Below are positions 4,531 through 26,807 of a stretch of DNA of 56,444 nucleotides, piece by piece (the stretch's first letter is position 1; each line of letters starts with the position of its first letter). The notes under the pieces are model-generated. The model was not told where the DNA came from. It saw nothing but the letters and a program-made list of their open reading frames with translations, and searched no databases. This stretch comes from Thermoanaerobaculia bacterium (GTDB lineage: Bacteria; Acidobacteriota; Thermoanaerobaculia; Multivoradales; JAHZIX01): the NCBI GenBank assembly GCA_027069135.1, contig JALXFE010000297.1, positions 1 to 56,444 of the forward strand. Direction: 5' to 3'. The translations under genes were made by a program, and so were the position numbers.

Positions 4531-5994
4531 CTAGATCTCCTCTCCGGCGCCCGCAGACTCTTCGCGGACGATCCACCGACGCCCCTCGCGTCGCAAGACC
4601 CGAACCCGAGCCCCCTTCTCAATGAAGTCGCCTTCCGATTCCACCTCCCGGCGCCGACCCTCGAAGCGTGCCCGACCGGCCGGCCGCAGGGGAGATAGGG
4701 CTTCTCCGACTTGGCCTACGAGATCGTCAAGGGTGCTGGCCTCTTCCATCTCGAAGCCGGCGCCACCGGCGAGGGAAGTCCCGAGGATCAACCCACTGCC
4801 GCCGGCCATCCCGTTCTTGGGTAGGAAGCGGATCAACAACAAGAGGACACCGATCCCCAATAGGGTCGAGATCAGGACTTGTTGGACCGCCTCTACGGAA
4901 AACGGGTTGGAGACCGAAAAATCGCTCCAATCCCCTGCCATGAGCGTCAGGATGCCGCTGGCCAGGATACAGCCGATGCCTAGAATTCCCGCCACCCCGA
5001 AACCGGGAATCACGAAAACCTCCAAACCCAGAAGCGCGATCCCAACGACGAAGAGGATGAGCTCTTCCCAACCCGCCAGATTCACCATGTAGTGGCTGAA
5101 GTAGAGGACGAAGAAACAACCGATGGCGAGTCCGCCGAAGAGCCCAAAGCCCGGGGCCTGGTATTCCATGTAAGCGAAGACCATCATGGCCATCAGCAGC
5201 AGGCTGGCGACCGCCTGACTGGTCAAGAAACCCACCAATCCCTCGGACCAGGACCTTTCGAGCTCCTCGGCTCCCTGGGGATACCCCAGCTGCTCCAGAG
5301 CCTCCTGGGCGGAGCGAGCCTTGAATTCGGCTAGGCCCAGTTCGACGGCCCTCTTGGTGGTCAAAGTCAGGAGCTTTCCTTCTTCTGAGACCCCTTCGAC
5401 CACCTTATCCTTGTCGACCATGGCCTCGGCGAGATCCGGATCCCGCCCTTGGGTTTCGGCGGTGCTTCGCATCTCTTCCCGGAAATAGGAGAGGTACTTT
5501 TCTGCCACGGCCTGGGGTACTTCGGTCCCGGGCCCGGACATCACCGGCGTGGCGGCGCCGATGGTGCCCCCGGGGGCCATGACAATCCGATCACAAGCCA
5601 GGGAGATCAACGCGCCAGCACTGATCGCCCGTTTGTTGATGTAGATCAGAGTCGGGACCTCGAGGTCGATCAAGGCATCACGGATCACCACCGCTGAGTC
5701 GACCCGTCCACCGAAGGTATTGAGCTCCAGGAACAGGGCCCCGGCCCCGCGGGTCTCTACTTCGGTCACCAGCCGCTTGACGTAGGCGGCGACGATGTTG
5801 TCGATCTCGCCGTCGATGGTGCCGCTGATCACGGTGACGGCCGGAGATAACTCGGGCTTCGGGGGCTCGCTCTCGTCCCCCTCCTGCCCGACCGCGCTCC
5901 AGGCCGAAGCGAGGAACCCTGCAATGACGAGCAACAGGCCCAGCACGGACCTGGTCGCACCTGACTTGATATATTTCATGGGAGGTATCTTCAT
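4531..5994 (-). CDS. long NfeD-type membrane serine protease
   Basis: A ~487-residue NfeD family protein: signal peptide/anchor (about 1-35), ClpP-class serine protease domain (about 50-230), four or more membrane helices (about 245-390) and a C-terminal OB-fold NfeD domain (about 415-480). The protease part shows LNTFGGRVDSA, the putative nucleophile region RAISAGALI and the oxyanion/Gly-rich APGGTIGAATPV. Family members degrade stomatin/flotillin C-termini. I chose the ATG at 5994 because GAAGGGG lies 8 nt upstream; an upstream in-frame start at 6018 also exists. It leads an operon with short NfeD, FloA and a small anchored protein. Confidence 0.9.
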   Translation of the reverse strand: MKIPPMKYIKSGATRSVLGLLLVIAGFLASAWSAVGQEGDESEPPKPELSPAVTVISGTIDGEIDNIVAAYVKRLVTEVETRGAGALFLELNTFGGRVDSAVVIRDALIDLEVPTLIYINKRAISAGALISLACDRIVMAPGGTIGAATPVMSGPGTEVPQAVAEKYLSYFREEMRSTAETQGRDPDLAEAMVDKDKVVEGVSEEGKLLTLTTKRAVELGLAEFKARSAQEALEQLGYPQGAEELERSWSEGLVGFLTSQAVASLLLMAMMVFAYMEYQAPGFGLFGGLAIGCFFVLYFSHYMVNLAGWEELILFVVGIALLGLEVFVIPGFGVAGILGIGCILASGILTLMAGDWSDFSVSNPFSVEAVQQVLISTLLGIGVLLLLIRFLPKNGMAGGSGLILGTSLAGGAGFEMEEASTLDDLVGQVGEALSPLRPAGRARFEGRRREVESEGDFIEKGARVRVLRREGRRWIVREESAGAGEEI

Positions 5995-6176
5995 AGTGGT
6001 TTCCCCTTCATCATACACTGCCGCCGTACGGTCCGCTTGGAGCGGGCCTGTGTAGCCAACGGTTTCTCCTTAATCCCTACGAAGAAATCGAGCCGTAGGA
6101 TTCGGGTAGAATCCTCCCGGAATCAGGAGCCGCTACTCAAGGCGTCTAACTCCTAATACGAGAAGCACCAGAGCCT

Positions 6177-7013
6177 ATGAATATCTACAAGGTCCTACCG
6201 GATCTCAAGAAGAAACGCCAGATGCACATCTGGAATACCGCCCTGCGCTCCCAGTGGTCGGCGATGGACATCGACTGGGACAAGCCGCATCGCATCACCA
6301 GCCGTAGATTCAAGGACCAGTTGGCGAAGATTCTCACCCCGGTGCTCATGGGGGAGCAGGCGGCCCTCTATTCGGTCTCCGGCCTGATTCCCATCCTCGG
6401 TCACCGGGCAGAGGTCGAGAGTCAGTTTTATCTGACCACCTGGGCGGTAGACGAGGCTCGCCACACGGAGCTCTTCACCTACTTCTACCAACGCCTGGAT
6501 CGGGAGCCCATGTCCATCCGCCGCTTCCCCGCCGGCTATCTCTTTCAAAGTCAAATCGTCTCCAAGGATCCGGCGGAATGGCTGGCCGGGGTGCTGGTCA
6601 GCGAGGTGCTCGCCAAATTGGTTCTCGAGGAATTCAAGCGGTTGGATTTGGATCCGGTCCTTTCCGATGTCTCGGACGGCATCCTTTTGGACGAAGCTCG
6701 GCACCTGGGATTCAATCACATCTACCTCGAAGACCGCTTCAGCACGCTCTTCTTGAACGAAGAGGAAGAGGGTCAGGCCTACTCGGGCCAGTTGACCCGG
6801 AGACTGCAAGCCGTCCTCGATCTCGTGCCCCCGATCTTCGCAGCCTTGGACCAGGAGTTGACCGACTTAGGAATCGACCGTCACGAGCTCCTGCACAATT
6901 TGGATACGGAATCCAAGCGCCGCTTGCAGCGGTCCGTCAAGGCGGGCCGTGCGGTGGCGACCCGGCAGAAGAAGGCTAGCCGTCTCGAAGACGCCGAGAT
7001 CCTGGGGAGCTAA
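6177..7013 (+). CDS. ferritin-like diiron oxygenase/R2-like protein
   Basis: A 278-residue ferritin-like four-helix protein with a carboxylate-bridged dimetal site. Two DEARH motifs supply E93/H96 and E173/H176; E60 (GEQAALY) and E143 (or E151) are the likely remaining ligands. The ligand order E, ExxH, E, ExxH matches ribonucleotide reductase R2-like and AurF-like oxygenases. It is not the nrdB of the cell, which lies at 47251-48246. The substrate is unknown. It reads in the same direction as the FAAL, unknown, YcaO and TfuA genes that follow (51 bp to the FAAL gene), so it may be the oxidative enzyme of that cluster. The ATG has only a weak ribosome-binding site. Confidence 0.75.
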   Translation: MNIYKVLPDLKKKRQMHIWNTALRSQWSAMDIDWDKPHRITSRRFKDQLAKILTPVLMGEQAALYSVSGLIPILGHRAEVESQFYLTTWAVDEARHTELFTYFYQRLDREPMSIRRFPAGYLFQSQIVSKDPAEWLAGVLVSEVLAKLVLEEFKRLDLDPVLSDVSDGILLDEARHLGFNHIYLEDRFSTLFLNEEEEGQAYSGQLTRRLQAVLDLVPPIFAALDQELTDLGIDRHELLHNLDTESKRRLQRSVKAGRAVATRQKKASRLEDAEILGS

Positions 7014-7064
7014 GAAGCTCACCGTCGCCAATCGCATCCCTCCGGGACCTCGGAAGGGAATCCG

Positions 7065-8777
7065 ATGGAAGTTGCGCCGATGGAAACCCTGACCGACGCT
7101 CTGTACAACGCCGCCGAACGCTTCGCCGACCGCGGTGTGGGAATCTACGACAGCCGCGGCCGCAATGCCCAACGGCGTTCCTACCGCGAAATCCTCGAAG
7201 GTGCCCGAGCCGGCGGTAGCCGCCTGCGGGCCCTGGGCCTTGCGCCCGGCGACCGCATCCTGGTCTGCCTACCGACATCCTGGGAATGGATGGACGCCTG
7301 GCTCGGTGCTCTGCTTCTCGGCGCCCTGCCGGTAGCCATCGCGCCGCCCGGGGCCATGGGTTCGTCGGCGGGCCATCTGCGGCGAATCGCTGCGATCCGG
7401 GCGATGCTCGACGGACGGGTCGTCGCCCCGCAATCGATGCGCGCCGCGGCCCTGGAACAGGCGGAGACCGGCGACGAGGAGGAGCAGGCGCGTTGCCGCC
7501 AGCTCGCCCAGGCCATCGTGACACCGGACGAGCTGGCGAGCTTGCCCGTAGAACCGAATTTCCGTCCCTACCGGCCGAAGCCGGAAGAGGTCGCGTTTCT
7601 TCAGCTGACCAGTGGCTCTACGGGACTCTCCCGAGCGGTTCAGATCCGACACCTCTCGATCGTCCACAACAACGTCTCCTCCAACTTCGGCATCGGCGAG
7701 CCGTGGGGGGCACCGGTCAGCACCTGGGCGAATTCAATGATCTCGTGGCTGCCCCTACACCACGATATGGGCCTTGTCGGCAGCTTCTTCCTCTGCCTAT
7801 TTCATGGCCTGGACCTCTGGCTGATGAATCCGACGACCTTCCTCGCCCGCCCCCTTCTGTGGCTCAAGGCCCTGGCGAACCACGGCATATCCTTTACCGC
7901 CTCTCCCAATTTCGGATACCAGCTCTGCGTCGAGCGGCTGAAGCCCCACCATCTCGAGGGCCTCGATCTATCGGGCTGGCGAGCCGCCATGACCGGAGCC
8001 GAGATGGTTCGCTCGGAGGCGGTGGCCTCCTTTTGCGAGCTGCTGGAGCCCTCTGGGTTCTCCCCTTCGAGCATACGGCCCTGCTACGGTCTGGCGGAAG
8101 CGACCTTGGCCGTAACCTTCGACACCGCCGGGCGCGGCCTACGTACCTTGCCGCTCCCCGCCGGGGCGGATTCGAGCCTCGGTCTCTCCGACGTGGCGTG
8201 TCTCGGCCGGCCGATTCCGGACACGGAAATCATCATCGCCGCCCCGGATGGATCGAAGTTGCCGGAGGGGGAAATCGGAGAGGTGCGCATACAAGGCCCG
8301 GGAGTTTTCGCCGGCTACTGGCGAGATTCCCAAGCCACTGCCTCGGGGTTACAAAACGGCTGGTTATGTACCGGAGATTTGGGATTCCTCGCCGACGGCG
8401 AGCTCTACCTCACCGGCCGAACCAAGGACGTTCTCATCCTTCGGGGCCACAACCTGATGCCTCACGAGCTTGAATGGTTGGCCGAAGGTACCGTCGGCGG
8501 CGGCGGAGCCCTTCGAAGCGGCGCGTTCTCCGTGGCTCGGGGAGCCGCCGGGGAAGAGGCCGTGATCGTGGTCGAGACCGCGGAGAAACAACCGGAAGCT
8601 CTACAAAATCTGGCCCGGGAGATCCGCCTCAGCGTCGCTCACGCTCTGTCTCTTACCTTAGCCGACGTAGCCTTCGTACGCCGCGGAAAAATCCCCAAGA
8701 CGACCAGTGGAAAAGTCCAACGCCGAGAGCTACGGCAACGCTACCTCGACGGCACTCTGGACCGCCTCGAGCTCTAG
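7065..8777 (+). CDS. fatty acyl-AMP ligase (FAAL-type AMP-binding enzyme)
   Basis: A 570-residue ANL-superfamily adenylating enzyme. The P-loop LTSGSTGLSR lies near residue 185 and the hydrophobic acyl-binding region continues through LPLHHDMGLVG, FAAL-like in spacing. Later motifs include CYGLAEAT, the hinge region GDLGFLADGELYLTGRTKDVLILRG (quoted in parts) and the C-terminal lysine motif TSGKVQRREL. The sequence before the hinge and the HHDMGL motif resemble fatty acyl-AMP ligases, which load acyl chains onto an acyl carrier protein rather than CoA. No ACP is adjacent; the nearest is at 27511. GGAAGGG lies just upstream of the ATG at 7065; an ATG at 7080 is an alternative. Likely operonic with the diiron protein. 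Confidence 0.88.
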   Translation: MEVAPMETLTDALYNAAERFADRGVGIYDSRGRNAQRRSYREILEGARAGGSRLRALGLAPGDRILVCLPTSWEWMDAWLGALLLGALPVAIAPPGAMGSSAGHLRRIAAIRAMLDGRVVAPQSMRAAALEQAETGDEEEQARCRQLAQAIVTPDELASLPVEPNFRPYRPKPEEVAFLQLTSGSTGLSRAVQIRHLSIVHNNVSSNFGIGEPWGAPVSTWANSMISWLPLHHDMGLVGSFFLCLFHGLDLWLMNPTTFLARPLLWLKALANHGISFTASPNFGYQLCVERLKPHHLEGLDLSGWRAAMTGAEMVRSEAVASFCELLEPSGFSPSSIRPCYGLAEATLAVTFDTAGRGLRTLPLPAGADSSLGLSDVACLGRPIPDTEIIIAAPDGSKLPEGEIGEVRIQGPGVFAGYWRDSQATASGLQNGWLCTGDLGFLADGELYLTGRTKDVLILRGHNLMPHELEWLAEGTVGGGGALRSGAFSVARGAAGEEAVIVVETAEKQPEALQNLAREIRLSVAHALSLTLADVAFVRRGKIPKTTSGKVQRRELRQRYLDGTLDRLEL

Positions 8778-8829
8778 AGATTCCTTGCCGAAACGCCCCG
8801 GCGATGGTACCTTGTGGATATCCTTTTTC

Positions 8830-8857
8830 TTGAAACTTTGGTCGCTCTTATTATTCT
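8830..8857 (+). promoter_or_regulatory. putative sigma-70-like promoter of the YcaO/TfuA genes
   Basis: In the 147-bp gap before the gene at 8925, an AT-rich patch holds TTGAAA (8830-8835) and TATTCT (8852-8857) separated by 16 bp. A short hairpin (ACGGCT 8864-8869 with AGCCGT 8873-8878) follows. Match to the consensus is fair; no transcription start is known. It would allow the last three genes to be expressed separately from the FAAL. Confidence 0.4.
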
Positions 8858-8924
8858 CTAACCACGGCTTCCAGCCGTCGAGGGTCTTTCCCCCAAGAGA
8901 CCAACCCCCAGAGGAGATCTCACG

Positions 8925-9536
8925 ATGAGCCAACACCTTGATGACAAGAGTCCCAGCAACAAAATTCTTTTTCAGAGGATTTTCGAAGAGCTCGCTTCGG
9001 GTATTCACCTGAACGTCGAGGAACAAGTCGGCGAAAACCGCATGGTAGGAGTCGCGTTGGTACCGGCGGCGCATTCTTCGAAAGAAACCACCTCAGCCGA
9101 GATTCCGAGCGTCGCCTCCACTTCCGACCGGGATGGGATCGAACAAGCGCTGACCCTGTGGGAAACCCTCCATCCGGACGACCTCATCAACCGCTGGCGG
9201 GAAGTCGCCACCGAACCCTTCATCGCCATCGGCCCCGGATGGGTCAAAGAAGTCGATGAACAATTCATCCATGATTGGTTCACAAGCGAGTCCTTCCGCA
9301 AATTGCTCGAGAACTACCAACCTTTCAATCCTCGCCGGACCGCGCTCTCCAACATCAATATCGTCCATATCGGTGAGTGCCTCGCATCCGTGACCTATCA
9401 AGCGGAAGAGGAGACCCAGGGCCGGAATACCGTCGGCAACGGTGGCGCCCTGATGATGAAGACCAAAGTCGGCTGGCGCATCGCAGCCATCTCACGCTAT
9501 GACCAGCTCAAGCACGACGGGAGCAAAGAAGGTTGA
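8925..9536 (+). CDS. NTF2-like unknown protein coupled to YcaO
   Basis: A 203-residue protein I cannot assign to a named family. Residues 1-70 are polar and probably flexible. Residues ~75-195 have the pattern of an NTF2/SnoaL-like cone: helices containing DDLINRWREVA and WVKEVDEQFIHDWF, then beta strands with NINIVHIGECLASVTYQ and ALMMKTKVGWRIAAISRYD. GAGGAG stands 8 nt upstream of the ATG. Its 3' end overlaps the YcaO start by 38 bp, so translation is probably coupled. Because no small precursor peptide is visible, it is a candidate substrate or partner of the YcaO-TfuA pair; this is inference only. Confidence 0.7.
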   Translation: MSQHLDDKSPSNKILFQRIFEELASGIHLNVEEQVGENRMVGVALVPAAHSSKETTSAEIPSVASTSDRDGIEQALTLWETLHPDDLINRWREVATEPFIAIGPGWVKEVDEQFIHDWFTSESFRKLLENYQPFNPRRTALSNINIVHIGECLASVTYQAEEETQGRNTVGNGGALMMKTKVGWRIAAISRYDQLKHDGSKEG

Positions 9537-10707
9537 GGCGCAGCTGCCACAGCGACCGGTGAGCTCTTCGCAAGGGCTCTCGGACGTAACGGCGACGTAC
9601 TTCCTCGGCACGCATCGGATTCGCACGCCGGAGGAAACCTGGGAGTGGCTCCAGCCGGTGCTTCCCATAGTAGGCATCACCCGGGTCGCCGACGTAACGG
9701 CGCTCGATGTCTTGGGGTTTCCGGTCTACCAGGCGGTACGGCCGGCGAGCCGTAGCCTCTCGGTTTCTCAAGGAAAGGCCGTCACCGCCGCCGGTGCCAA
9801 GGTCAGCGCGGCCATGGAAGGTATCGAGCTTTGGCATTGCGAACGCTTGGATCCGGTCCCCCAGGTGGAAGTGTCGCTGCGGGAGATCCAATATGCCAAT
9901 CCCATCGAATCCGCCCATCTCAAGTGGCGCTCCGATACCCGCTTGCTCGACGCCATGCCTTTGGCCTGGCTCAAGACCCGTAGCCTGACCGGAGGCCGGG
10001 ACGGTTGGCTGCCTCGTTCGATGGTGGAGCTCGACCTCACTCAACGCCTGGGTTTCGAACCCCAGATGTTTCACCGGACCTCCAACGGTCTGGCCTCCGG
10101 GAACTGCCTTCCGGAGGCCCAGGTCCACGCGCTGTGTGAGCTCATCGAGCGACACGGTCTCTACCTGGACCACCGGGATCCGTCGCGTAAGAAGGCCCTC
10201 GACCCGGAATCCCTCCGCGACACCTATTGTTGGGACCTGATCGAACGAATCCGCGCCACGGGAATGAAGGTCGCTCTATGGGACCTCACCTGGGAGTTGG
10301 GGGTTCCCTGTGTCGCGGCGGATGTCATCGCCAACGACCTGCCCAATATCTGGCGGGGGTCCGGTTGCCACGGCGCACCGGAGGTCGCGGTGTCCCGCGC
10401 GCTGAGCGAGGCCGCCCAATCGCGGCTGACGTATATCTCCGGTGCCCGGGACGATCTGACGGAATTCGGTGAGTTCCTCGACGCCGAGGCCAAATTCGCC
10501 TCTTTCGTCGAACCGTCCCCCACCTGCCGCCTCGAGGATCTCCCATCCTTGGCCACGGGAAATCTCGCCCGGGATCTGGAAGTCCTTCTGGAGCGGCTCG
10601 TCTCTCACGACTACTCCGCATACGCCATCGACCTCACCCGCCCGGAGATCGGGGTACCGGTGGTCTCCGCCTTTGTCCCGGGCCTCAACGAGGCCCCCTA
10701 TGGCTGA
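9499..10707 (+). CDS. YcaO-family cyclodehydratase/thioamidation enzyme
   Basis: A 402-residue YcaO domain protein. Diagnostic segments include AAMEGIELWHCERL (the S/A-x-x-E-x-x-E ATP-binding helix), ASGNCLPEAQVHALCELIERHG, and a late GVPVVSAFVPGL. YcaO enzymes use ATP to activate a backbone amide of a peptide or protein and give azoline, amidine or thioamide products. Its pairing with TfuA (8-bp ATGGCTGA overlap) is typical of thioamide-forming YcaOs, as in methyl-coenzyme M reductase modification and thioviridamide-type clusters. The C-terminus (NEAPYG) lacks the Pro-rich tail of azoline-forming YcaOs. The ATG at 9499 overlaps the upstream gene; GTG at 9559 is a possible alternative start. 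Confidence 0.93.
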   Translation: MTSSSTTGAKKVEAQLPQRPVSSSQGLSDVTATYFLGTHRIRTPEETWEWLQPVLPIVGITRVADVTALDVLGFPVYQAVRPASRSLSVSQGKAVTAAGAKVSAAMEGIELWHCERLDPVPQVEVSLREIQYANPIESAHLKWRSDTRLLDAMPLAWLKTRSLTGGRDGWLPRSMVELDLTQRLGFEPQMFHRTSNGLASGNCLPEAQVHALCELIERHGLYLDHRDPSRKKALDPESLRDTYCWDLIERIRATGMKVALWDLTWELGVPCVAADVIANDLPNIWRGSGCHGAPEVAVSRALSEAAQSRLTYISGARDDLTEFGEFLDAEAKFASFVEPSPTCRLEDLPSLATGNLARDLEVLLERLVSHDYSAYAIDLTRPEIGVPVVSAFVPGLNEAPYG

Positions 10708-12241
10708 GCCAGGATCAACGGAACCGGCGGCCCCGCCCCGGAGGACCTTTGTTTTCGCCGGCCCGACACTGCCACGAACACCGAACGCCGAATGGAGCCA
10801 GCTCCTAGGGCGAGCCGAGCTGCGACCGCCGGCCCAGCGCGGGGATATCCTCAACGCCCTCTGCCACGACCCGCACACTCTGGTCCTCTTGGACGGCTAC
10901 TACTTCACGGTCCCCTCGGTGACTCACAAGGAGCTTCTCTACGCCCTTGAGGCCGGAATCCGGATCATCGGCAGCGCCAGCATGGGGGCGTTGCGCGCCG
11001 CGGAGCTTCATCCCTTCGGCATGGAAGGCGTCGGGTGGGTCTTCGAGCAATTTCGTGACGGTCACCTGGACGGGGACGACGAGGTCGCCGTCCTCCACGC
11101 GACGGAGGACTTCCAGTTCCGGCCCTTGACCGTGGCCTTGGTGGACGTCCGAGACGCCCTGCTCCACCTCCTCGAAGCCGGCCTCGAAACGGACCCGGCG
11201 GAGGCCTTGATCGCAGATCTCAAGGCCCTACCGTTTTCCCAACGGCACGGTCACCGCATCCGGCAGCTGGCTCGGAACCGGCTGGGAGAACCCCTGGCCG
11301 CCGCGCTCGATCGGCGGCTCAGCACCCGGAGCGTCAAAGAACAGGACGCCCTGCGAGCGTTGCACAGAGCCTTCGACTCCGAACGCCCTCGAAGGGAAGA
11401 GCTAGAAGGTGCCGAAGGTACCTCTACCGCGACGACCTTCCTGGGATATTTCCAGGAATGGCACCTGGAGGTCCCCGGTGGGACTCCGGAAAGACGCTGC
11501 ACCTTTCGCCAGGCCGCTCACTGCCTTCAGGTGCTCCACCCCGAAGCCGGCGCTGTGATCCGGAGGCTGCGACGACGGATTCTCCTGGCCGCCGCTGCCC
11601 GCCGGCAGGGACTCGAGGCGAACCCCCGCCGCATACAAGATCTGCGAGAGCTTCTGGAAAAGCAATTGCGCCGGCTTCACGGCATGGAGCTTCTTCCCGC
11701 TCCGGAACGCCTGGATGAAGCTCGCAGCCACGCTCTAGCCGAAGCTGCCGTCAAATACTTCGGCAGCCAAGAGGACGCGCTCCTCTATATGGCGAGCACC
11801 CTGGGCCTCGACGCCGAGGAGGGGCTCGCGAGCCTCGAAAGGCTGCTGATGCTGCAGGATGACCTCCTGCCCGCCTGGTGGATTGCCCGCGGGCTGGCCT
11901 GCACCTCTGCGTTCCCCGAAGTGGTCACACTGGCCCGGGAAGCAGCCCAGATCCACCGGGCCTTTCAAACCTGGAAAGGGGGAGCCCGGATTCAGAAGGC
12001 GGATCTCGAGGAGTTGGCGGCGCAGCTTTGGGGCTGCCCTCGGGATGGCGTCCTCCAAGAAGCCGGGGCCCGGGGTCTCTTCGAGGCCGGAGGATTCTCT
12101 CCGGGTTTTAGTAACGCCCTGGAACTCGTTGCCGCCGCCGAGCGACTCCCTCGGGCGATCAACGAATACCCGCAAGCCCGGAGCAGGCTGCGCACGACCG
12201 AGGTTCTCTCCCTTCTGCCGCCTATCTCCCCTACTCTTTGA
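10700..12241 (+). CDS. TfuA-like protein, partner of YcaO
   Basis: A 513-residue TfuA-domain protein. The TfuA core (about residues 14-230) is clear: RTFVFAGPTLPR, LVLLDGYYFTVPSVTHKELL, and the Gly/Ser/Ala-rich GSASMGALRAAEL. TfuA is thought to deliver sulfur or help YcaO form thioamides. The start at 10700 was chosen because ATGGCTGA overlaps the YcaO stop by 8 bp, a standard coupling; the open frame extends upstream inside ycaO but has no reason to be used. The ~280-residue C-terminal extension, mostly helical and rich in Leu, Ala, Glu and Arg, is longer than a minimal TfuA and is of unknown role. The gene ends 11 bp into the convergent methyltransferase. Confidence 0.9.
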   Translation: MAEPGSTEPAAPPRRTFVFAGPTLPRTPNAEWSQLLGRAELRPPAQRGDILNALCHDPHTLVLLDGYYFTVPSVTHKELLYALEAGIRIIGSASMGALRAAELHPFGMEGVGWVFEQFRDGHLDGDDEVAVLHATEDFQFRPLTVALVDVRDALLHLLEAGLETDPAEALIADLKALPFSQRHGHRIRQLARNRLGEPLAAALDRRLSTRSVKEQDALRALHRAFDSERPRREELEGAEGTSTATTFLGYFQEWHLEVPGGTPERRCTFRQAAHCLQVLHPEAGAVIRRLRRRILLAAAARRQGLEANPRRIQDLRELLEKQLRRLHGMELLPAPERLDEARSHALAEAAVKYFGSQEDALLYMASTLGLDAEEGLASLERLLMLQDDLLPAWWIARGLACTSAFPEVVTLAREAAQIHRAFQTWKGGARIQKADLEELAAQLWGCPRDGVLQEAGARGLFEAGGFSPGFSNALELVAAAERLPRAINEYPQARSRLRTTEVLSLLPPISPTL

Positions 12242-13268
12242 CGATCCGGTAGAGGTAGCGCCGAATCCGCCCTTCGGCGACCCAACGCGTTCCCCGCCCG
12301 GCCTCTCGTAGGAGCATCTCGGCCAGATCTTCGTTGCCCTCTCGCCCGAAAGCCTGTCGCAGGTCTTGAGCGGCAGATTGTTGGCGAAGCCAGAGGTCTT
12401 CTTCGACGGAGCTGAAATCCCAGGTCTCGAGGCGTACCGGGAAGGGTTTGAGAGCCCGCGAGAGAGCGCTGGCCTGCGGCATGGATCGATCCGCCGGACC
12501 TTCCGCCAGATCACTGCACAGAAAGAGCATCTGGCCCCCGGTCGGAAGGATCCGCAACAAGCGACTCAAGGTCGTCGACAGATGGTCGAGAAAATACAGC
12601 ACATCGATGCCGATCACGACGTCAAAGGAACCGGGAGGTGGTTGCCAGGAGTCCAGATCCACCGGCCGGAACTCAAGAGCCCCGGATCCCTCGACGGCCT
12701 CCCTCGAAGAGTGGCAGCGAGCGTGCTCGATAGCCTCCGCGGACAGATCAACACCGGTGAAGGCTCCACCGATACGGTCGTGCAAGACTCGTGTCAGGGT
12801 ACCGATACCGCAACCTATATCGAGCACCCGAGCTCCCGAACGAGCCGCCAGCAGGTCTGCGATTCGCCCCAGCTGCCGCTCCTCCGTCAGGCTGAAGGGT
12901 AGGAGGTTCGCTCCGAAGACCTGCCGGCAATACTCCCGATAGGCGGGGCTCCCGGCGCAGCGAATCTGGAGTCGCCCGAAACCTTCCGCCAGGTGAACCT
13001 TGCGATGCTTTTCGGCCTTGGGACGAATCTCCTCCGAGAGCCCGTATTCTCCCCCGTCTCGCACCAACCAGCCTCGGTCCAGGAGGTCGGCCCAGGCCTC
13101 TTCCCAGTCGAGCCGCTGGGGACCATAGAACAGGTCACCATGGCGCCACAGGCTCTCGCGGTCGAGCTTCGACGCCTTGCCGGTGGCCCAATCCTGCCGG
13201 TGTTGCTCCATCTGCCGAAGGAGCCCCAGGATCTGTCGTTGGGCTGGACTAATGGGAGGCACCGGCAT
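12231..13268 (-). CDS. class I SAM-dependent methyltransferase with N-terminal winged-helix-like region
   Basis: A 345-residue protein. The Rossmann-type SAM site VLDIGCGIGTL is at about residue 145, with the acidic loop FTGVDLSAEAI and the post-loop DVVIGIDVLYFLDHL, typical of class I (UbiE/Methyltransf_12-like) enzymes. The first ~100 residues (SPAQRQILGLLRQMEQ, WADLLDRGWLVRDGGEYGL) look like a winged-helix or substrate-recognition region. It starts within the 3' end of the cyclase-AAA gene (20-bp overlap), so the two are co-transcribed, and it converges on tfuA. It might be a tailoring enzyme for the YcaO product, but the opposite strand argues against shared transcription. Substrate unknown. 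Confidence 0.8.
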   Translation of the reverse strand: MPVPPISPAQRQILGLLRQMEQHRQDWATGKASKLDRESLWRHGDLFYGPQRLDWEEAWADLLDRGWLVRDGGEYGLSEEIRPKAEKHRKVHLAEGFGRLQIRCAGSPAYREYCRQVFGANLLPFSLTEERQLGRIADLLAARSGARVLDIGCGIGTLTRVLHDRIGGAFTGVDLSAEAIEHARCHSSREAVEGSGALEFRPVDLDSWQPPPGSFDVVIGIDVLYFLDHLSTTLSRLLRILPTGGQMLFLCSDLAEGPADRSMPQASALSRALKPFPVRLETWDFSSVEEDLWLRQQSAAQDLRQAFGREGNEDLAEMLLREAGRGTRWVAEGRIRRYLYRIVKE

Positions 13269-16200
13269 CCTGGCCGAGAAGCTCCAGGGCCTCGCGATGA
13301 TCTACCGAGCCTGCGCCCTCCTCCATACCGGCGACGATGGCGGCGAGGTCATCGCTGTAGCCTTCCTCGATCCGGGTCAGAGCCACCATGGCTCGCAGCT
13401 CCAGACTGCGGGCCTGCTGCTGTCGGGCGATACTGACCGCCTTTTGTATTTCGGAAATCGCTTGGGTCGAAAAGTCTCCCCCCTTGGACCAGAGGATCTC
13501 GCCTCGCTCGCGGTGAATCTCCGCTTGCAGGTAGCATTCCCCGGTGCGCTCCACCTCGGAGGAAGCCCGCTCCAGCTGGCGCAACGCCGCGTCCTCATCG
13601 CCGGCCAGACGATGTACCTGGGCGAGGAGAGTCAAGAAAAGTGGGTAGCCAAAACCCACCCCGGAGGCCTTCCAGCCCTCGAGGCCCTCGGTCAGGAACT
13701 CCATCCCCGACTCCACTGCGCCCTTCTCGGCCAAAGCCCGGCCTTTGAGGATCAACCCCATTTCTTTCCAGGTCGGGATTCGATGCTCCTGGGCGAGATG
13801 GATGCCCGCTTCCGTGTGTGCCAGCGCCTCGTCCGCCTGCCTTCTGAAAACCTGCACCTGAGCGGCACCGATATGCGCCACGGCAAGGCTCATGGGGTGG
13901 GTCAGCTTGCGTGCCCAGGCAAGGTTGAGATCCATCGTGGCCTGGGCTCGATCCGGGTATCCCAGGAGCCAGAGGGCGTAGGAAGAGTAGACCCGACAGC
14001 TCACCAAGGGCGAGATGGCGTCCAGGTAGGCCTGCTGGCCCAACCCTTGACGCGCTTCGTAATGGGCCAAAGCCTGCTCCAGCTGCTCTTGTGCCTCCAC
14101 CAGCTGCCCCAAATGCCACAGCGGGGCCCCCAAGGTCAGATGGGCTTCCGCCAGGAGATCTGCATCGCCACTTTTCCGGGCCAAAGCCTGGAACTCCTCT
14201 CCGAGCTCCCGGGCCTTTTGGAAGTCTCCCCTTGCCGTATGGAGACGTTGCAATCCTCGTAGGGCACCGTGCGCAAACGGGGTTGCCGGCTGCTGACGGG
14301 CGAGATCCCGAGCTCGCAGATGAGCCTCCTCCACTTCCGGTGCCGTAAAGCCGCGGGTGGCGATGAGGGCCGGAGCCAGGATGACCTGGAAGGGTAGCTC
14401 CCGCTGATCCCGCTCCGACGACTCCGGTTGAGCAGAGATCAGCTCCAGGCCCCGATGCAAATGCCGCTGAGCCTCCAGGTTGGCGAAGCGCTGCGCGGAC
14501 AACTCGCCGGCCAGCTGCCAATAGCTGATGGCGGGCTTTTCCAACCGTGCCTCGGTGCAGTGGTGGGCCAGGACCTCCGGCTCGGTTTCCACCGTCTCCG
14601 GGAAATGCTCCTCCAAGGCCTGGACCACCTGCCAGTGATAGCGACGGCGCTGCTTTTTGAGAAGGCTCTGGTAGGCCGCCTCCTGGAGCAGCGCGTGCTT
14701 GAACTGATAGCTAACCCGATCTAACTCATCCTTGGGAATGAGCATGTCGGCATCGACCAGCCGCTCCAGGTTCTCCTCCAATTCCTGGCTTTCCAGGGTC
14801 GAAACGGCCCGTAGAAAGTCCAGCCGGAAGCTTCTCCCCAGAATCGCTCCCAGCTGAGCAACGTCCTTGGCCCCTCCGAGACGATCCAGGCGGGCGAGCA
14901 AGGAGTCGTGGAGGCGATGGGGAATCTCCAGCCAACGCAGGGGGTCTTCGGAAGAAAACGCGACACGGTCTTCGCCTCGATCTTCCAGGGACTCGAGGAA
15001 AGTCTTGGTAAGCTCTTCCAAGAATAGAGGGTTGCCGTCGCTGCGACCGGCAAGCTCTGCCACGACGGCATCGGGAAGGGGCCGGTCTCCGACGAGGCGT
15101 CGCACCAAGGCTCGGCTGTCGGCGGTGGTCAGACGGTTGATCGTCACCTCTCGGACCGCCTCGCGCCCCGCCCATCCGGGCTGAAAATCCGGCCGGATCG
15201 TGGCCAGGAGCATCAGCTGCGTCCCGGGGCTTCGTTCGGCCAGCAGCCCTAGGAATTCGACCGTCGACGGATCCATCCAATGGAGATCTTCGGCGACCAA
15301 CAAGAGGGGACGACGATCCGCGAGCCGTTCCACCCACCGGACGAGCATCTCGAGGGTTTGTCGACGCAGCCGGGTCGGGGCCAAGCGCACCGGCTCGTAG
15401 GGAGCGGGAAGGGGCAAGGACAACAGCTGGGCCAGCAGCGGCAAGGCCTGCTCCACGGAAAAAAGTAGCCGCCGCAGCTCCTCTTCCAGATTTCGAATCT
15501 CGTCTTCCGGCGAAGCGGTACCCTGTCGGCGAAGCCGGCGGTGGAGCGCTTCCGTTAAGGGGAAAAAGGCGCTGTTCTGATGATAGGAAGCGGATTGGAG
15601 CTCCCAGAGCTGGTAGTCCTTCCCTCCGAGCTCTTCCTTGAAGACCTCGACCAACCTCGATTTTCCGATGCCCGCCTCGCCACGGAGAAGCACCGTCTGA
15701 CCGCTCCCCTCCTCCGCTCTCTTCCAGCATTCCAAGAGCAAGCTCAGCTTGCGCTCCCGGGCCACCAATGGAGTCCATCCGGCCGCGGGTCCAAGGGCCC
15801 TCAGATGGCCGCTGACGGCCTTGACATGAAAAATCTGAACCGGCCGGGATACCCCCTTCAACACCGCGTCGCCGGCTTCTTCCAGACGGAAAAAGCCACG
15901 CACCAGCCGCTCCGTAGCTCCGCTGATGATGACCCCGTTGGATTTGGCCAGCCCCTGGAGACGGGCCGCGATATTCGGGGTCTGCCCCATGGCCAAGCGC
16001 TCCCGCTTGTCTCCGGCGCCCACCTCCCCCACGACCACCAGACCGGTGTGAATTCCGATCCGCACCGAGAGCTCGGCGTCTCCCTCTCGGCCCAGACGCC
16101 GATTGAGGGTGCGGATCTCACGAGTGATCTCTAACCCTGCCTTGGCGGCTCTCCGGGCATCGTCCTCGTGGGCCACCGGGTAGCCAAAATAGGCCAGGAT

Positions 16201-16590
16201 GCCATCCCCGAGGTATTGGGCGACACTCCCTTCGAAGCGGCGGATAACCCGGTTGCAGACTTCCTGGTAGGCCTTGACCGTGTCGCGTAGGTCCTCCGGA
16301 TCCAACTCCTCGGAAAGGGCGGTGGAATCCATGAGATCGCAGAACATCACCGAGAGGTGCCGGCGTTCCCCCTCCCGCCCGGTCCGTTGGGCTCGGGATT
16401 CTCCGCCCCCCAAGCTGCCGTCGGCCACGCCGAGCAACCTGGCACCACAAGCGCCACAGAACCGGAAAATACCGGGATTCTCAAAGCCACACTGATAACA
16501 GATTTGAGCAATTGAGCGCCCGCAGCTAGAGCAGAGCGATGTGCCGAGGGGGTTTTGAGAATGGCAGGCGGGACAGGGCGCTGTGGCCAT
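13249..16590 (-). CDS. zinc ribbon-class III cyclase-AAA-TPR regulator
   Basis: A 1113-residue signalling protein. Two zinc ribbons: C6, C9, C20, C23 and C31, C34, C45, C48. A class III adenylate/guanylate cyclase domain follows (about 75-255) with metal ligands D85 (FCDLMDST) and D129 (LGDGILAYFG) and the conserved NIAARL. Next is an AAA/STAND ATPase (Walker A GEAGIGKS 304-311, Walker B LLLVAEDLHW) and a long TPR-like helical region to the end. Such proteins couple nucleotide cyclisation to ATP-driven sensing, though the cyclase may be only regulatory. It is divergent from the gene at 16726 and overlaps the methyltransferase start by 20 bp. Confidence 0.92.
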   Translation of the reverse strand: MATAPCPACHSQNPLGTSLCSSCGRSIAQICYQCGFENPGIFRFCGACGARLLGVADGSLGGGESRAQRTGREGERRHLSVMFCDLMDSTALSEELDPEDLRDTVKAYQEVCNRVIRRFEGSVAQYLGDGILAYFGYPVAHEDDARRAAKAGLEITREIRTLNRRLGREGDAELSVRIGIHTGLVVVGEVGAGDKRERLAMGQTPNIAARLQGLAKSNGVIISGATERLVRGFFRLEEAGDAVLKGVSRPVQIFHVKAVSGHLRALGPAAGWTPLVARERKLSLLLECWKRAEEGSGQTVLLRGEAGIGKSRLVEVFKEELGGKDYQLWELQSASYHQNSAFFPLTEALHRRLRRQGTASPEDEIRNLEEELRRLLFSVEQALPLLAQLLSLPLPAPYEPVRLAPTRLRRQTLEMLVRWVERLADRRPLLLVAEDLHWMDPSTVEFLGLLAERSPGTQLMLLATIRPDFQPGWAGREAVREVTINRLTTADSRALVRRLVGDRPLPDAVVAELAGRSDGNPLFLEELTKTFLESLEDRGEDRVAFSSEDPLRWLEIPHRLHDSLLARLDRLGGAKDVAQLGAILGRSFRLDFLRAVSTLESQELEENLERLVDADMLIPKDELDRVSYQFKHALLQEAAYQSLLKKQRRRYHWQVVQALEEHFPETVETEPEVLAHHCTEARLEKPAISYWQLAGELSAQRFANLEAQRHLHRGLELISAQPESSERDQRELPFQVILAPALIATRGFTAPEVEEAHLRARDLARQQPATPFAHGALRGLQRLHTARGDFQKARELGEEFQALARKSGDADLLAEAHLTLGAPLWHLGQLVEAQEQLEQALAHYEARQGLGQQAYLDAISPLVSCRVYSSYALWLLGYPDRAQATMDLNLAWARKLTHPMSLAVAHIGAAQVQVFRRQADEALAHTEAGIHLAQEHRIPTWKEMGLILKGRALAEKGAVESGMEFLTEGLEGWKASGVGFGYPLFLTLLAQVHRLAGDEDAALRQLERASSEVERTGECYLQAEIHRERGEILWSKGGDFSTQAISEIQKAVSIARQQQARSLELRAMVALTRIEEGYSDDLAAIVAGMEEGAGSVDHREALELLGQDAGASH

Positions 16591-17541: not shown

Positions 17542-20500
17542 TCAGTTCGTCGGGTAGTAGCCGGTAATCGTTCGGGCCTCGAGGCCCCGGCCCTCCACCT
17601 GAACTTTCACCGGTCGCCAAAGCTTGTCGTCCCCGGATTCGGTGTAGTAGGCGAGGAGGTATTGGCTTCGTAGCTCATCATCGATCTCTTGGTAGATGGT
17701 CTCCAAGTTCTTCGTATTCGCAAGGTAATACACCCTCCCACCGGTATCTTCGGTGAGGCGGCCCAGCTTGCGGGTGAAGGACTTCATGGAAGACGTCAGG
17801 TCGTCCCCGCGGGCGATACCCGGGTGCAGGACGATGAGGTAGATCGGAATCCCTAAGCGCTGGGCGAAGTCATGGCAGACCTTGAAGCTCAGCGCCTCCT
17901 CCTCCTGGGCTCCGTCGGAAAACACGACGAGGGCCTTTTTCCCAGTGGCTCCTTGCAGCTCGACAAGGGAGAAGACGATGGACTCCCACAGATGGGTGTC
18001 GCCGCCGGGGCGGAGACGGTGGATGCTGTGAATCACCGAGCGAAGGTCTCCGGTGAGATCCCGAGCCAGACGGGGCTCAGTATCAAAATCCACCAAGAAC
18101 GCACGATCTCGCCCGGAGAGAAAGCCCCGGACAAAGTCGCTGGCAGCCTCCTGGACGATCGGCAGCTTGACGAACATGCTGGCCGAAGAGTCGATATTCA
18201 ACCCTAGGGTCACGGGCAGGTCTCCGGCGTCGCTGAATTGGGCGATCTCTTGTTTTTCGCCCTCTTCGAGCACGACGAAGCGATTCTGTTCCAACCCCCG
18301 AACCGGCCGTCCCTGGCGATCCGTCACTACGGTATACAGCTCCACCAGCCGCACCCGCACCTGGTCGGTAAAGTCCTGATCCCCCAAAAACACCACATCC
18401 TCGGCAAACCGCCCGTCATCCAGGTGGGCCACGACCCGAATGAAGCCTTCGGATCGACCCTCCGGGATCACCATCCGCTGCCGAAAAGGGGGGGCGTAGA
18501 GAGTGGCGACGGTACGCTCGTTGAAGGAGAATTCCATACGGTCCAGACGATGATCCTGCGGCAAATTGGCGCTCACCTGGACGTCTACCGCGCCGCTGAT
18601 CTCCCCCCCCTCGGGAGAGATGATGCGCACTCTGAAGGCTCCCCCGGTCTCGTTGAGACGCAGAACGTCGTCCCCCACCTCGCCGCCGTCAGCTCCATAG
18701 CCGACGACCCGTAAGGTCCGCGGCCGCGGCAAGCGGCCGAGCCGAATCCTCGCCTCGTAGGGGGGCTTGGAGCGCCGGGCGACCTCCTTGCCGTCGAGAA
18801 AAAAGGCGATCTCTCGAACATCCTTTCGCAAGGCCCGGGCTCGGAACTGCACCCGGCCTTGAAAGACTTCCAGATCCGGCTGCACGAGTCGTACAGCTCT
18901 CACCTTGGGGAGAAACTCGGCCTCGGCCAGGGCGCGTTCCAGGGCCGAGTCGCCGTCGTCGCCCAGAGAACGGATCCCCCCTTCGACCAGAGCGGCCAAG
19001 GTCCCTCCCCAGAATCCGGTGTTGAGATCCTCTACGATGAGGGCGATTCGATCCGCCCCCTCGGGAGAGGCCACCGCCTGGGAGTAGGACCAAGGATCCC
19101 GCGGGTTCTCCACGGTTTGGTAGCCGTGCTGGAGAGTCGCCGGGCCCTGCCGATCCCCGGGCGCGAGGGTGATGCGCAATTCGGCCGGCCCTTCCGGGCC
19201 ACCCCCCACCGATTCTTGGAAGCGCACCCCCAGATCCGCCCGGGCCTCGAGAATCGCGGTGCCGGATTGGGGAGATTCTCGACGGACGGCCGCCACGAGA
19301 TCCAGGTGCCCTCCCTCCAGGTCTCCGGCCAGCAGCCGCCGTACCCGCGCTGCAGAAACCGCCGAGGGCAGGGATGTCCCGATCCACCGGGGAGCTCGGA
19401 ACTGCAATCCTGAACGCCGGGATCGGACGGTGATTTCATGACTCTCCCCCGGCGGCACCCGGATCTGCAGGGCATATCGCCGCGCCAGAGAATCGAGGAA
19501 GCTCGACATTTCCGGTGCCCCGGCGACCACGGCGCCGGCGGTAGCGCCCGCCAACAGATCCAGGGGCGCTCGAGGGGCCACCAGGAGCGGGCCTTCCGGC
19601 TCCGCCGCCTCGCCGCTTTGATTCAATTTTCGGCGAATCCCCTCAAGCGTCGTGGAGATGAAGGCCTTAGGAGCCGGATCTGACGATCCGGTGCCGGTGC
19701 TGTCCTTGAACCGCTGATAGTCGGAAAGCCCCGCCGCCGGGGCGGTGACCGTCTCCGGGACGCTCACCGCGACGAACGCCCAGCCGAGGGAGGACATGGC
19801 CTTCCCCAGCTCTTCGGCCACCGCGGGCAGGGGAGAAGGGGCCAGCCGAGATCGCAAGCTACGGCTCTGGGACCCTCCGATGGGATCTACATAGAAGGTG
19901 TAGGGGTCCAGATCGAATCCGTCAGTCACCCAGAAAGCAAGGCCTTGAGCCCCCGCCAACGGGGCGCTCGCTAAGTAGGAGAGGTAATAGTCCTGCTGCC
20001 GGGTCAGCAGACGAGCCTCTTCGTTCATCGCCCGTTCCAAGGCCTCGAACTCCCCAGCGTCGCCCCGACTCCCCGTCGAAGCGAGCAGAGGGCGCAATTG
20101 GGCGTATTGCCTCTTCCGGATCTCCCGCAAGCTATCCCGATGCTCCCCCCCGAAAGCCATTTGACTCAGAGCGGCCTCGACGGCGGTGGCGTCCCTCGTC
20201 GGGGGAAGAATCTGCCGTGGTTGAGGATCTGCCCGGACGATTTCCACCGGGCCCAGGGAGGTGAGGCGGACCGCCTCGGCGGAGAGAATCGAAACGGCTC
20301 TTTGAGCGCTCCCCGAAGAGCTCAGCGGGAAATCGATATAGATCAGAATCCGCCGCTCCGGGGTGCGCTCCAGGGCTTCGACTTCGAGGATCTGGTCTCC
20401 CCGACGCACTTCGAAATCCGCCGAGCTCAGATCCGCCGGGGGTTCCTGCAGAACCGCCAGACCGAGGCTGGTGGAGATAGGCTCTTGGGCCGCGACCACC

Positions 20501-20565
20501 AAGGGAAAAGCGGCACTGAGGAGAACCGTCAAGAGGCCGAGGCATGAGATTTTGGATTTCACCAT
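17542..20565 (-). CDS. secreted VWFA-domain protein (acidobacterial VWFA-related type)
   Basis: A ~1007-residue exported protein. The signal peptide is MVKSKISCLGLL... ending near VVAAQ. I chose the ATG at 20565 because GGAAGG stands just upstream and it places the signal peptide at the N-terminus; an upstream in-frame start at 20613 adds 16 unconvincing residues. The C-terminal ~290 residues form a von Willebrand A domain with MIDAS motif NIDSSASM (DxSxS) and ALVVFSDGAQEEE, preceded by Ig-like segments. Family members with this VWFA-related layout are abundant in Acidobacteriota; binding partners are unknown. The N-terminal half has a second VWFA-like region (RILIYIDFPLSSS) lacking a canonical MIDAS. 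Confidence 0.85.
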   Translation of the reverse strand: MVKSKISCLGLLTVLLSAAFPLVVAAQEPISTSLGLAVLQEPPADLSSADFEVRRGDQILEVEALERTPERRILIYIDFPLSSSGSAQRAVSILSAEAVRLTSLGPVEIVRADPQPRQILPPTRDATAVEAALSQMAFGGEHRDSLREIRKRQYAQLRPLLASTGSRGDAGEFEALERAMNEEARLLTRQQDYYLSYLASAPLAGAQGLAFWVTDGFDLDPYTFYVDPIGGSQSRSLRSRLAPSPLPAVAEELGKAMSSLGWAFVAVSVPETVTAPAAGLSDYQRFKDSTGTGSSDPAPKAFISTTLEGIRRKLNQSGEAAEPEGPLLVAPRAPLDLLAGATAGAVVAGAPEMSSFLDSLARRYALQIRVPPGESHEITVRSRRSGLQFRAPRWIGTSLPSAVSAARVRRLLAGDLEGGHLDLVAAVRRESPQSGTAILEARADLGVRFQESVGGGPEGPAELRITLAPGDRQGPATLQHGYQTVENPRDPWSYSQAVASPEGADRIALIVEDLNTGFWGGTLAALVEGGIRSLGDDGDSALERALAEAEFLPKVRAVRLVQPDLEVFQGRVQFRARALRKDVREIAFFLDGKEVARRSKPPYEARIRLGRLPRPRTLRVVGYGADGGEVGDDVLRLNETGGAFRVRIISPEGGEISGAVDVQVSANLPQDHRLDRMEFSFNERTVATLYAPPFRQRMVIPEGRSEGFIRVVAHLDDGRFAEDVVFLGDQDFTDQVRVRLVELYTVVTDRQGRPVRGLEQNRFVVLEEGEKQEIAQFSDAGDLPVTLGLNIDSSASMFVKLPIVQEAASDFVRGFLSGRDRAFLVDFDTEPRLARDLTGDLRSVIHSIHRLRPGGDTHLWESIVFSLVELQGATGKKALVVFSDGAQEEEALSFKVCHDFAQRLGIPIYLIVLHPGIARGDDLTSSMKSFTRKLGRLTEDTGGRVYYLANTKNLETIYQEIDDELRSQYLLAYYTESGDDKLWRPVKVQVEGRGLEARTITGYYPTN

Positions 20566-20671
20566 GGTCCTTCCGTGGGATCCGGTCCGGTGTTGCGCCG
20601 GGACCGGCGACACCTATTCTACGCAAGCCGCGCTCCGTCGGTTGAAACCGGATGCGGAGGGTGCCTATTCC

Positions 20672-23600
20672 TCAATGGGACGTGTGCTCATCGAGCTTGC
20701 GAACCGCACGAGCCAGAGGGTGACCGCGCCAGAACCGCTTGACTTCCTCGACGCCGAGATGGCCGCTGATCCGCTCCAACAGCTCCCGGCAACGGTTCAG
20801 GTCCTGTTCGGCAGACTCGGCCTTGTAGCGCAGTAGAAGAAGCTCCGCCCGCTGCTGGACCGGCCCCTGAAGACTCGGGAACGCTCCCTGCGAGGAAGCT
20901 CCCTTCAAGAGGCTGAGGTAGGCCCGAGGCAAGGACCCCGGCACGTCCAATCGGTAATTGTCCACCAAATGGGCGGCCTCCCTCAGGAGCGGCTCCACCA
21001 GTTGGCCGGCCCCCTGCTCCAACATCAGGCGCCCCAAGGCCAAAGAGGTCCGGGCGATATCCCGACCGGCACCGATCCGATGCTGCAATTCCAAGGCCTC
21101 GTTGAAACGACGCTCCGCCTCGTCCCGGTCGCCTCGGTACCGAGCCAGCTCTCCGAGCCCCAAGGTCGCCTCCGCTTGCGCCCGGATCAGCCCCCGGTTC
21201 CCGGCACTCCTCAGGGAAGTCTGAAGGAGGTGCTCCGCCTCCGACCATCGCACCTCTTCGGTAGAGAGTCGGCCCAGAGTGACGAGAAACCTCAGCACCA
21301 TTTCGGGCCCGCCGATCCGCCGGGCGACCTTCAAACCTCGCTCCAACTCCCGGCGGACTTGACGATAGTCCCCGAGGGCCCGGACGGCATGCGCCAATTC
21401 GATCTGGCCCTCAGCCACCAACTCTTGCAGGCCGAGCTCAGCCAACTCCGGAAGAATCGCTGAAATCCCATCTTGGGCTTTCTCGTACCTGCCCGCCACG
21501 CGGTGCAAACAAGCCAGATGAAGCCGCGCTCGGGCCCTAAGGGACCGATGACCGACCCCATCGGCAACGGCTTCTTGCTGCTTGAAAAAACTTTCCGCCG
21601 CCACCAGATGCCCGCTTCGCCTTTCGGACAGGCCTAGAACCTCCAGGGCCTCTCCGTCCTCCTCGGGCCCCGAGGCGAGCTTTCGGGCGCCGTCCACCAG
21701 CCGCTGGGCTCGGGAGGAGTCTCCCCCCTGAAGGTGGACTCGGGCGAGAGTCAATTGGGCTCGGACCAACCGCCTCGGATCCCCGGTGACCCGAGCTAGA
21801 GCCAAAGCCTCCTCGGCAAAGCTACGGCGCTCCCGCCAACGGCCGCGCATGGCCAAAGCCCTCACCTGGCTCCGGCGGATGTCGCAACGTAGCCCGGCAT
21901 CGAGACTGGCGGCCACGTAGGCTCTCTGGGCCAACCCCAAGAGGGCTTCCGTCTTATACTCGGCGGCAAGATAGGCGAGGGCCGAGCGAACCCAGGGCAG
22001 GGCCCGCTCCCCCAAGCCTCCCCGCAGAAAATGCTCCGCTAAGCGGGACGCCACGGAGCCTTCCACGGAGTCATTCACGGAATCTCCCGCCGGGTCTTCC
22101 AACCCCTCCGGGATCTCTTCGAGCCGGAGGAGCTCTTCCGCCAGCTGCCGGTGCATCCGCAGTCGCTCTTCCGGGCTCAGGGCGCGATATAGAACCTCCT
22201 GAAGTTGAGGATGATCGAAAGCGAAACGAGAGCCCCGGGCCCGGACGATCCCGCTGTGCCGCTCGACCGTGGCCAAGGAAGCCAGAATCTTGAGGCTGGG
22301 CTCTGAGACGCAGCGGGCCAGGAGCATCGGGTCGAAGATCGGACCCTGCACCGCCGCCCACCCCAGCAGCTCCCGGGCCTCTTCGCTGAGCTCTTCGAGA
22401 CGACCCTCGAGGAGATCCTCTACGGCGTCCGGGGTCACCACCGAAGCCAACTCTCCGCTGAGTGAAAAGGTGCCGCCCTCCACCGCCTCGCCGAGCAGCT
22501 GTTTCTCCCGCATCTCCCGGATCATCTCGATGACGAAGAACGGGTTGCCGGCCGATCGCTCGCCCACCCTGCGTCCCACCGTCGCCGCCGCCACTTCGGT
22601 ATTGAGAAGATCCTTCAACATCCCCTCGATCTGCCGCGGCGACAACCGCCGCAAGGACAGCTGTTGGATCCCGTCCAACCGTCGCAGGAGATTCCAGTCT
22701 TCGTTATGAGGGGAGGCAGATCCCGTGGCGATGAGCAGTACCGAGCTTTCCCGTACGGTCTTGGCGAGGCTCGAGAACAGCCCTCGGACCTCTGATGAAT
22801 CGGCATGCAGGTCGTCGAGGACCCACACCAGCGGCGCATCGACGGACAACACACATAGGAGATAGGCAAAGACCGCTTTCAAGGCCTCGGGAGCCAGCGG
22901 CGCTCCGCCGTCGGCCACTTCCGCGGCTCCCGTCAACCAGGCCGCGAACCCGGGTACCAGATGGGGAGCTGCTGAAAGGTAGCGTGCCAGTTTCCCCCGC
23001 AACGATTCTTCGCCGATATGTTGGAGTAAGGAACGTGCGACGGATCCTCCGGGGAGGTCTCGGCCCCGGGAGCCGCCTCTGCCGTAGAGCAGCACCATCC
23101 CCTCACCTTCGTGGTGGAGCTGGCATACGAACTCGTCCACCAGGCGGGTCTTCCCGACCCCCGCCTCCCCTTCGAGGAGCACGGCACGCCCTTTCCCTGC
23201 TTTCGCGTCCCGGAACAAAACCCGCAGTGTCTTGAGCTCCTGAAAGCGACCGACGAAAGGGGTTTCCCGCGAAACCTCTACCCGCTGTAGCTGGTGGTCC
23301 GGGTGTTGCCGTAGGAGTTCCTGCTGAAAGCTCTTCCACCAGGCAGACTCTTCTCCGAGCTCCAGGGCCTCGCGCAGAGATCGAGACGAAGGGAATCGAT
23401 CCTCGGGCTGCTTCTCCATCAAGCGAGCGATCATCTCCTCGAACCACGAGGAGAGCTGCGGACTCAAATCTCCAGCCTTGGGCGGTACGTGGTTCAGTTG
23501 CCGGTGGACCGTCGCCCGGCGACTCTCAGCCTCGAAGGGTTGAATCGCCGTGGCCGCTTCGTAGAGCACCACCCCCGTCGAGTAGAGATCCGCCGCGGGC

Positions 23601-26345: not shown

Positions 26346-26798
26346 CTACTCCTCGCCCTCTTCCACCTCCGACAGCTGAGCCAGGATTCCCCGGGCCTTC
26401 TCCGCGTCGTGCTCGGCGACCTTGAGAACGATCGGGTTGGGACCGACGGCGAGAAGACCCGAACCGAAGAGCATCCGATTGGAGCCGAAGACTTCGCCCG
26501 CCACACCCTCGCGCTGCAGTACCTGCCGGGCCGCGTCGGCCTCAATACGGTCGCCGAAAGTCTCGACCGTGATCAGGGCTTCGGGCGGAAGCTGACGCTT
26601 CGCCATCGTCTCCCGATAGGCCTGAGTCGCCCGATCGATGGCCGCGGAGGTCACCCCCCGCCGCTCCAACTCCGCGTGCAGCAACTCGCGAGCTTCCGGC
26701 ACGAAGTCCTGCCCTCGCTGTACCAACTCCTCGATCAACGTCTCCCGATTCCAGGTCTCGAAGGCGTGCTGTATCTGTTCGCGTTCTTGATCGTCCAC
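26346..26798 (-). CDS. DUF2007-containing protein
   Basis: A 150-residue protein. The first ~65 residues are helical and acidic. The C-terminal part (about 75-145) reads TVETFGDRIEADAARQVLQ, EGVAGEVFGS and GPNPIVLKVAEHDAEKAR, the pattern of DUF2007 (putative signal-transducing, GlnB-like ferredoxin fold). It is convergent with the glycosyltransferase (15-bp gap) and lies 9 bp downstream of the DUF374 acyltransferase, so it probably belongs to the ACP-acyltransferase operon. Function unknown. Confidence 0.8.
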   Translation of the reverse strand: MDDQEREQIQHAFETWNRETLIEELVQRGQDFVPEARELLHAELERRGVTSAAIDRATQAYRETMAKRQLPPEALITVETFGDRIEADAARQVLQREGVAGEVFGSNRMLFGSGLLAVGPNPIVLKVAEHDAEKARGILAQLSEVEEGEE

Positions 26799-26807
26799 GA
26801 TGTTCTC

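Follow-up and report, generated by a model that had tools for sequence, protein, structure and literature searches.

A three-gene unit of NTF2-like protein, YcaO and TfuA in Thermoanaerobaculia, with a candidate protein client for thioamidation

Three overlapping genes, encoding a 203-residue NTF2-like protein, YcaO and TfuA, form a real unit as judged by their gene order in related genomes. They lie in the window, i.e. the whole 56,444-nucleotide stretch of DNA that was analyzed, which is one contig of the 7.17 Mb, 626-contig genome used for the genome-wide searches. We put at about 0.5 the probability that this is a thioamidation unit under regulation, in which the NTF2-like protein is the client of YcaO-TfuA. 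The features discussed below are as follows:

6177–7013, + strand: AurF-like diiron protein (AurF family PF11583, E 5e-11); neighbour, outside the unit
7065–8777, + strand: fatty acyl-AMP ligase (FAAL; AMP-binding); neighbour, outside the unit
8830–8857, + strand: promoter-like sequence of the sigma-70 type (TTGAAA-16-TATTCT) ahead of the trio, a consensus match alone
8925–9536, + strand: 203-residue NTF2-like protein; homologues at the same position in L012, L013 and L014
9499–10707, + strand: YcaO (PF02624, 231 bits against a cut-off of 25.7)
10700–12241, + strand: TfuA, 513 residues (PF07812, 132 bits against a cut-off of 30)
12231–13268, − strand: SAM-dependent methyltransferase (PF13489); overlaps the end of the cyclase gene
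13249–16590, − strand: zinc ribbon/class III nucleotide cyclase/AAA_16/TPR protein, TIGR03903-type, no kinase domain
26811–27656, − strand: DUF374 acyltransferase (PF04028, E 2e-20); true start probably inside the ORF
27529–27726, − strand: acyl carrier protein (ACP; PP-binding), 65% identical (E 5e-22) to the ACP that follows FAAL in genomes G002 and G003

The original prediction described five co-directional genes lying together, the last three of which overlap, and this layout was confirmed. All five ORFs, from the AurF-like protein to TfuA, are found in a row on the + strand between 6177 and 12241, with overlaps of 38 bp at 9499–9536 and 8 bp at 10700–10707, the latter presuming that TfuA starts at the ATG at 10700. 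A longer TfuA ORF of 590 residues from the GTG at 10469 was considered and is unlikely, as its start would fall inside YcaO. The promoter-like site sits between FAAL and the 203-residue gene and is the sole + strand match in 5900–12600; on both strands there are 2 such consensus matches against 0.8 expected. The NTF2-like, YcaO and TfuA genes are probably transcribed from a promoter of their own.

Conservation of the neighbourhood, proposed earlier as a check on the link between the 203-residue gene and YcaO-TfuA, bears the link out: the overlapping trio is kept in all four members of one YcaO clade. Using YcaO and the 203-residue protein as queries against 59 relatives, we found the two genes adjacent in G022 and G023, while inspection revealed a diverged copy of the 203-residue gene at the same position in G029. 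The trio order is thus present in three other genomes of the same order, where genes were called by a simple script and starts may be off. Of 149 genomes of the class, a profile built from the four NTF2-like proteins picks out these four and no others. A phylum-wide draw of 396 genomes gave G000 and G023 alone, and among 80 YcaO loci from named genomes the gene is found in 3, all from trio genomes already counted. The four YcaOs form a clade with 100/100 support, the nearest relatives being actinobacterial YcaOs, and none of the YcaO-TfuA loci examined outside this clade carries the 203-residue gene. Locus surveys and the YcaO tree therefore indicate that the NTF2 gene is constant inside the clade and unseen outside it, the trio being known from four genomes only. 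Across the four loci, identity is 17–34% for the protein in the slot before YcaO, 46–53% for YcaO and 36–47% for TfuA; this faster divergence of the slot protein is likened to the behaviour of a precursor.

YcaO, present as one copy in the genome, has the motifs SxxxExxE, ELIERH and RALxEAxQSR invariant in all four trio members, and its ATP/Mg motifs align to those of MJ1094 (6pe3), which places it among YcaO-domain proteins. Its score against the model for McrA-glycine thioamidation (TIGR03266) is 197 bits, under the cut-off of 365, which leaves it outside that family. TfuA has a core at about residues 30–175 followed by a long C-terminal part; it aligns to the solved TfuA 6xp8 and keeps the ASMGALRAxEL motif, which identifies it as a TfuA adjacent to YcaO. 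YcaO is an ATP-dependent backbone-activating enzyme, and its pairing with TfuA suggests that it is of the thioamide-forming type.

The earlier statement that no short precursor gene is visible held on closer search. The conserved short ORFs seen up to 6 kb from the trio in the four loci are all shadows inside large genes, in a search that would miss ORFs under 18 residues or very divergent ones, and neither Nif11 nor NHLP leader peptides were detected in the genome. The short precursor nearby that characterizes thioamidated RiPP clusters was not found. In other lineages, the slot before YcaO-TfuA is occupied by Nif11-like peptides or, in marine gammaproteobacteria, by proteins of 243–287 residues (L023, 5076–5939; L030, 5248–5979; L046, L063, L074 and L077). 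The latter share an almost invariant C-terminal CYxANLRT, gave no Pfam match in the three that were scanned, and are preceded in most loci by a kinase-AAA-TPR gene; they are possibly another protein client of YcaO-TfuA. Two other Acidobacteriota YcaO-TfuA loci have precursor-like slot proteins of 91 residues (L015, 10920–11195) and 106 residues (L016, 10381–10701), which have a DDGxLY region in common and differ in their C-termini. Profile comparison was used to look for kinship of the NTF2-like protein with slot proteins from other YcaO lineages and gave no relation.

The 203-residue protein comprises an N-terminal extension (about 1–65) and an NTF2-like domain (about 66–190), with mean identities among the four slot proteins of 21% and 28%, respectively. 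The window's own protein has no match in Pfam or NCBIfam; for its relative in L012, the hit to DUF4440 (E 1.8e-4) is below cut-off. An AlphaFold2 model of the full-length protein reached a pLDDT of 45, and a fold search with it gave nothing reliable. A four-row alignment of the domain, with L012 as the first row, yielded NTF2 topology with a pLDDT of 72.8 and a pTM of 0.70 in one of five models, the others scoring 35–42; this model is of the L012 protein, which shares 41% identity with the window homologue across the domain. PDB fold matches to the L012 model are NTF2-like proteins with Z scores of 11–14, while searching the PDB by sequence with the NTF2 profile returned chance matches only. 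The predicted fold thus agrees with the earlier guess, and there is moderate evidence that the slot protein has an NTF2-like fold. Our literature search found no paper pairing YcaO with an NTF2-like partner and none on SnoaL-like RiPP precursors.

On the opposite strand, the protein encoded at 13249–16590 contains a zinc ribbon, a cyclase domain, AAA_16 and TPR regions. It aligns with the TOMM kinase/cyclase model TIGR03903 along 1000 residues, scoring 574 bits, and falls outside that family, being below the cut-off of 705.75 and having a zinc ribbon in place of the missing N-terminal kinase; the homologue from Vibrio penaeicida (L030) passes at 710. The gene is single-copy in its genome at E≤1e-40, and the best-scoring homologue adjoins YcaO in G023, G029 and G033. 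For the four genomes with this arrangement, holding 1, 5, 3 and 5 copies, the rough product of chances is 5e-10, with copies counted at one threshold and no correction for the genomes having been picked for possessing YcaO. The window, L013 and L015 have the cyclase motifs FCDL, GDG and NIAAR intact, and in L014 and the gammaproteobacteria these are degenerate. A kinase-AAA-TPR relative lies upstream of the slot gene, YcaO and TfuA in Vibrio penaeicida, Pseudoalteromonas and Marinomonas. The YcaO of G033 belongs to another clade and has a 91-residue slot protein, so the association of the cyclase type with YcaO arose or moved more than once. The protein is likely a sensor or regulator.

Three further − strand genes lie nearby. 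The methyltransferase at 12231–13268 was considered as a tailoring enzyme; it is not kept at other loci, with no match in L012–L016, and is probably accessory or unrelated. A further Ser/Thr kinase-AAA_16-TPR protein, of 1188 residues, is encoded at 20672–24238, about 4 kb past the cyclase gene; it was rejected as a partner, a similar gene being present in G001, which is without the trio. A VWA-domain protein of 1023 residues is encoded at 17542–20613.

In the reading that we favour, YcaO would use ATP to activate the NTF2-like protein at one or several of its backbone amides, TfuA would supply sulfide, and sulfur would replace oxygen in the backbone with a gain of 16 Da at each site. The change from amide to thioamide is what known YcaO-TfuA biochemistry leads one to expect. 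The NTF2-like protein would be a dedicated client of ordinary size in the usual slot of a RiPP precursor, as suggested by its position, the gene overlap, its faster divergence and the lack of another candidate; its N-terminal extension may be where it is recognised or modified. The cyclase/AAA/TPR protein would probably sense a signal and control the unit. Against this reading stand the restriction to four genomes, the low conservation of both extension and domain, and the Ser/Thr kinase-TPR gene that lies beside the trio of G022 in place of the cyclase type. The fuller proposal, that a folded NTF2-like protein is a dedicated bacterial substrate for YcaO-TfuA thioamidation, switched by the cyclase/AAA/TPR sensor in a regulated thio-protein system and not a peptide natural product, is advanced tentatively, at distinctly less than even odds.

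NTF2-like folds commonly act as hubs, binders or enzymes, and the NTF2-like protein could therefore be an accessory that scaffolds YcaO-TfuA or binds a peptide or housekeeping-protein substrate encoded elsewhere. This is the main rival and a serious one, with roughly one chance in three. It is in keeping with the CaMKII hub being among the best solved folds (Z 13–14), although many further NTF2-like proteins have scores almost as high, and with the four NTF2-like proteins having no invariant catalytic pair, no evident core peptide and no modified site that stands out by strong conservation. Against an accessory role speak the gene's place in the slot of a precursor, its overlap with YcaO and its faster divergence compared with YcaO and TfuA, together with the absence of Nif11-type or NHLP-type leader candidates from the genome.

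Azolines and amidines are further YcaO products, and one of these, instead of a thioamide, might be placed on the NTF2-like protein. This is improbable, since an adjoining TfuA is typical of thioamide formation (PMC5589413), no cyclodehydratase partner gene was identified in the unit, and the four NTF2-like proteins have no conserved Cys.

The original prediction also joined thioamidation to acyl activation and diiron oxidation in a five-gene pathway, and here it did not survive comparison with relatives. The first gene is of the AurF family, R2-like oxidase models giving weak matches far below cut-off, and the second is of the fatty acyl-AMP ligase type (AMP-binding, 185 bits; 360 bits against the FAAL model PRK09192, cut-off 600). 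The two are adjacent without such a YcaO in G002, G003, G008 and G040 (L112, L113, L115 and L116), and the trio occurs without AurF in G022, G023 and G029; these genes do not stay together across relatives. In G002 and G003, FAAL is followed by genes for an ACP, a DUF374 acyltransferase and a DUF2007-like protein, the acyltransferase coming after the ACP in the same order in L112 and L113. In the window, these three genes lie at 26346–27726 on the − strand, in the same order, inverted and about 17.5 kb away. The simplest reading of this arrangement is that a rearrangement broke this operon apart after FAAL and before ACP, at the present start of the trio. G001, of the same genus, has the FloA-NfeD genes with neither AurF-FAAL nor the trio beside them. 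A single pathway, for which five co-directional genes in a row and the AMP-binding protein and ACP of some described TfuA clusters (PMC8120280) might speak, is strongly disfavoured by these separate occurrences, by the displacement and inversion of the ACP, acyltransferase and DUF2007 genes, and by the promoter-like site that separates FAAL from the trio. Judged by gene order, AurF-FAAL is outside the trio unit and belongs with the ACP and the DUF374 acyltransferase. The AurF-like, FAAL, ACP, DUF374 and DUF2007 genes form one set in L112 and L113, and in the window this set is divided and in part inverted; it has the look of an acyl-lipid pathway that is as yet uncharacterised.

To our knowledge, very few targets of whole-protein backbone thioamides are known (McrA and uL16). 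A unit in which YcaO and TfuA come with a protein client of their own would be a compact test case for the recognition of folded proteins by these enzymes, and the trio with its cyclase neighbour would give a concrete context to the poorly understood kinase/cyclase proteins of YcaO clusters.

Several known systems resemble the unit in part. TOMM kinase/cyclase clusters (TIGR03903) likewise have a cyclase/AAA/TPR protein adjoining YcaO, with most of the model matched here, and a large Ser/Thr kinase lies beside Burkholderia NHLP precursors (Haft et al. 2010, PMC2887384); unlike in these clusters, a zinc ribbon stands in for the kinase, the score is below cut-off, there is no NHLP precursor and TfuA is present. 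Thioamidated RiPP clusters with TfuA (PMC6511847, PMC8120280) share the YcaO-TfuA pair and a gene in the precursor slot, whereas the slot gene here encodes an NTF2-like protein of about 200 residues and no short precursor was found. In methanogens, McrA is a whole-protein client of YcaO-TfuA (PMC5589413), and TfuA is, according to the summary in PMC13063428, a hydrolase that works on a thiocarboxylated carrier. The McrA system has a YcaO with an overlapping TfuA gene and a whole-protein substrate, for which the NTF2-like protein is the candidate here; in contrast, our unit is bacterial and has no McrA, a TfuA of 513 residues as opposed to about 216, and a dedicated NTF2-like gene in front. Finally, E. 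coli YcaO works without TfuA on a ribosomal protein, uL16, with no dedicated partner, yet it requires the full-length folded protein (PMC13063428) and so sets a precedent for a YcaO that acts on a folded protein.
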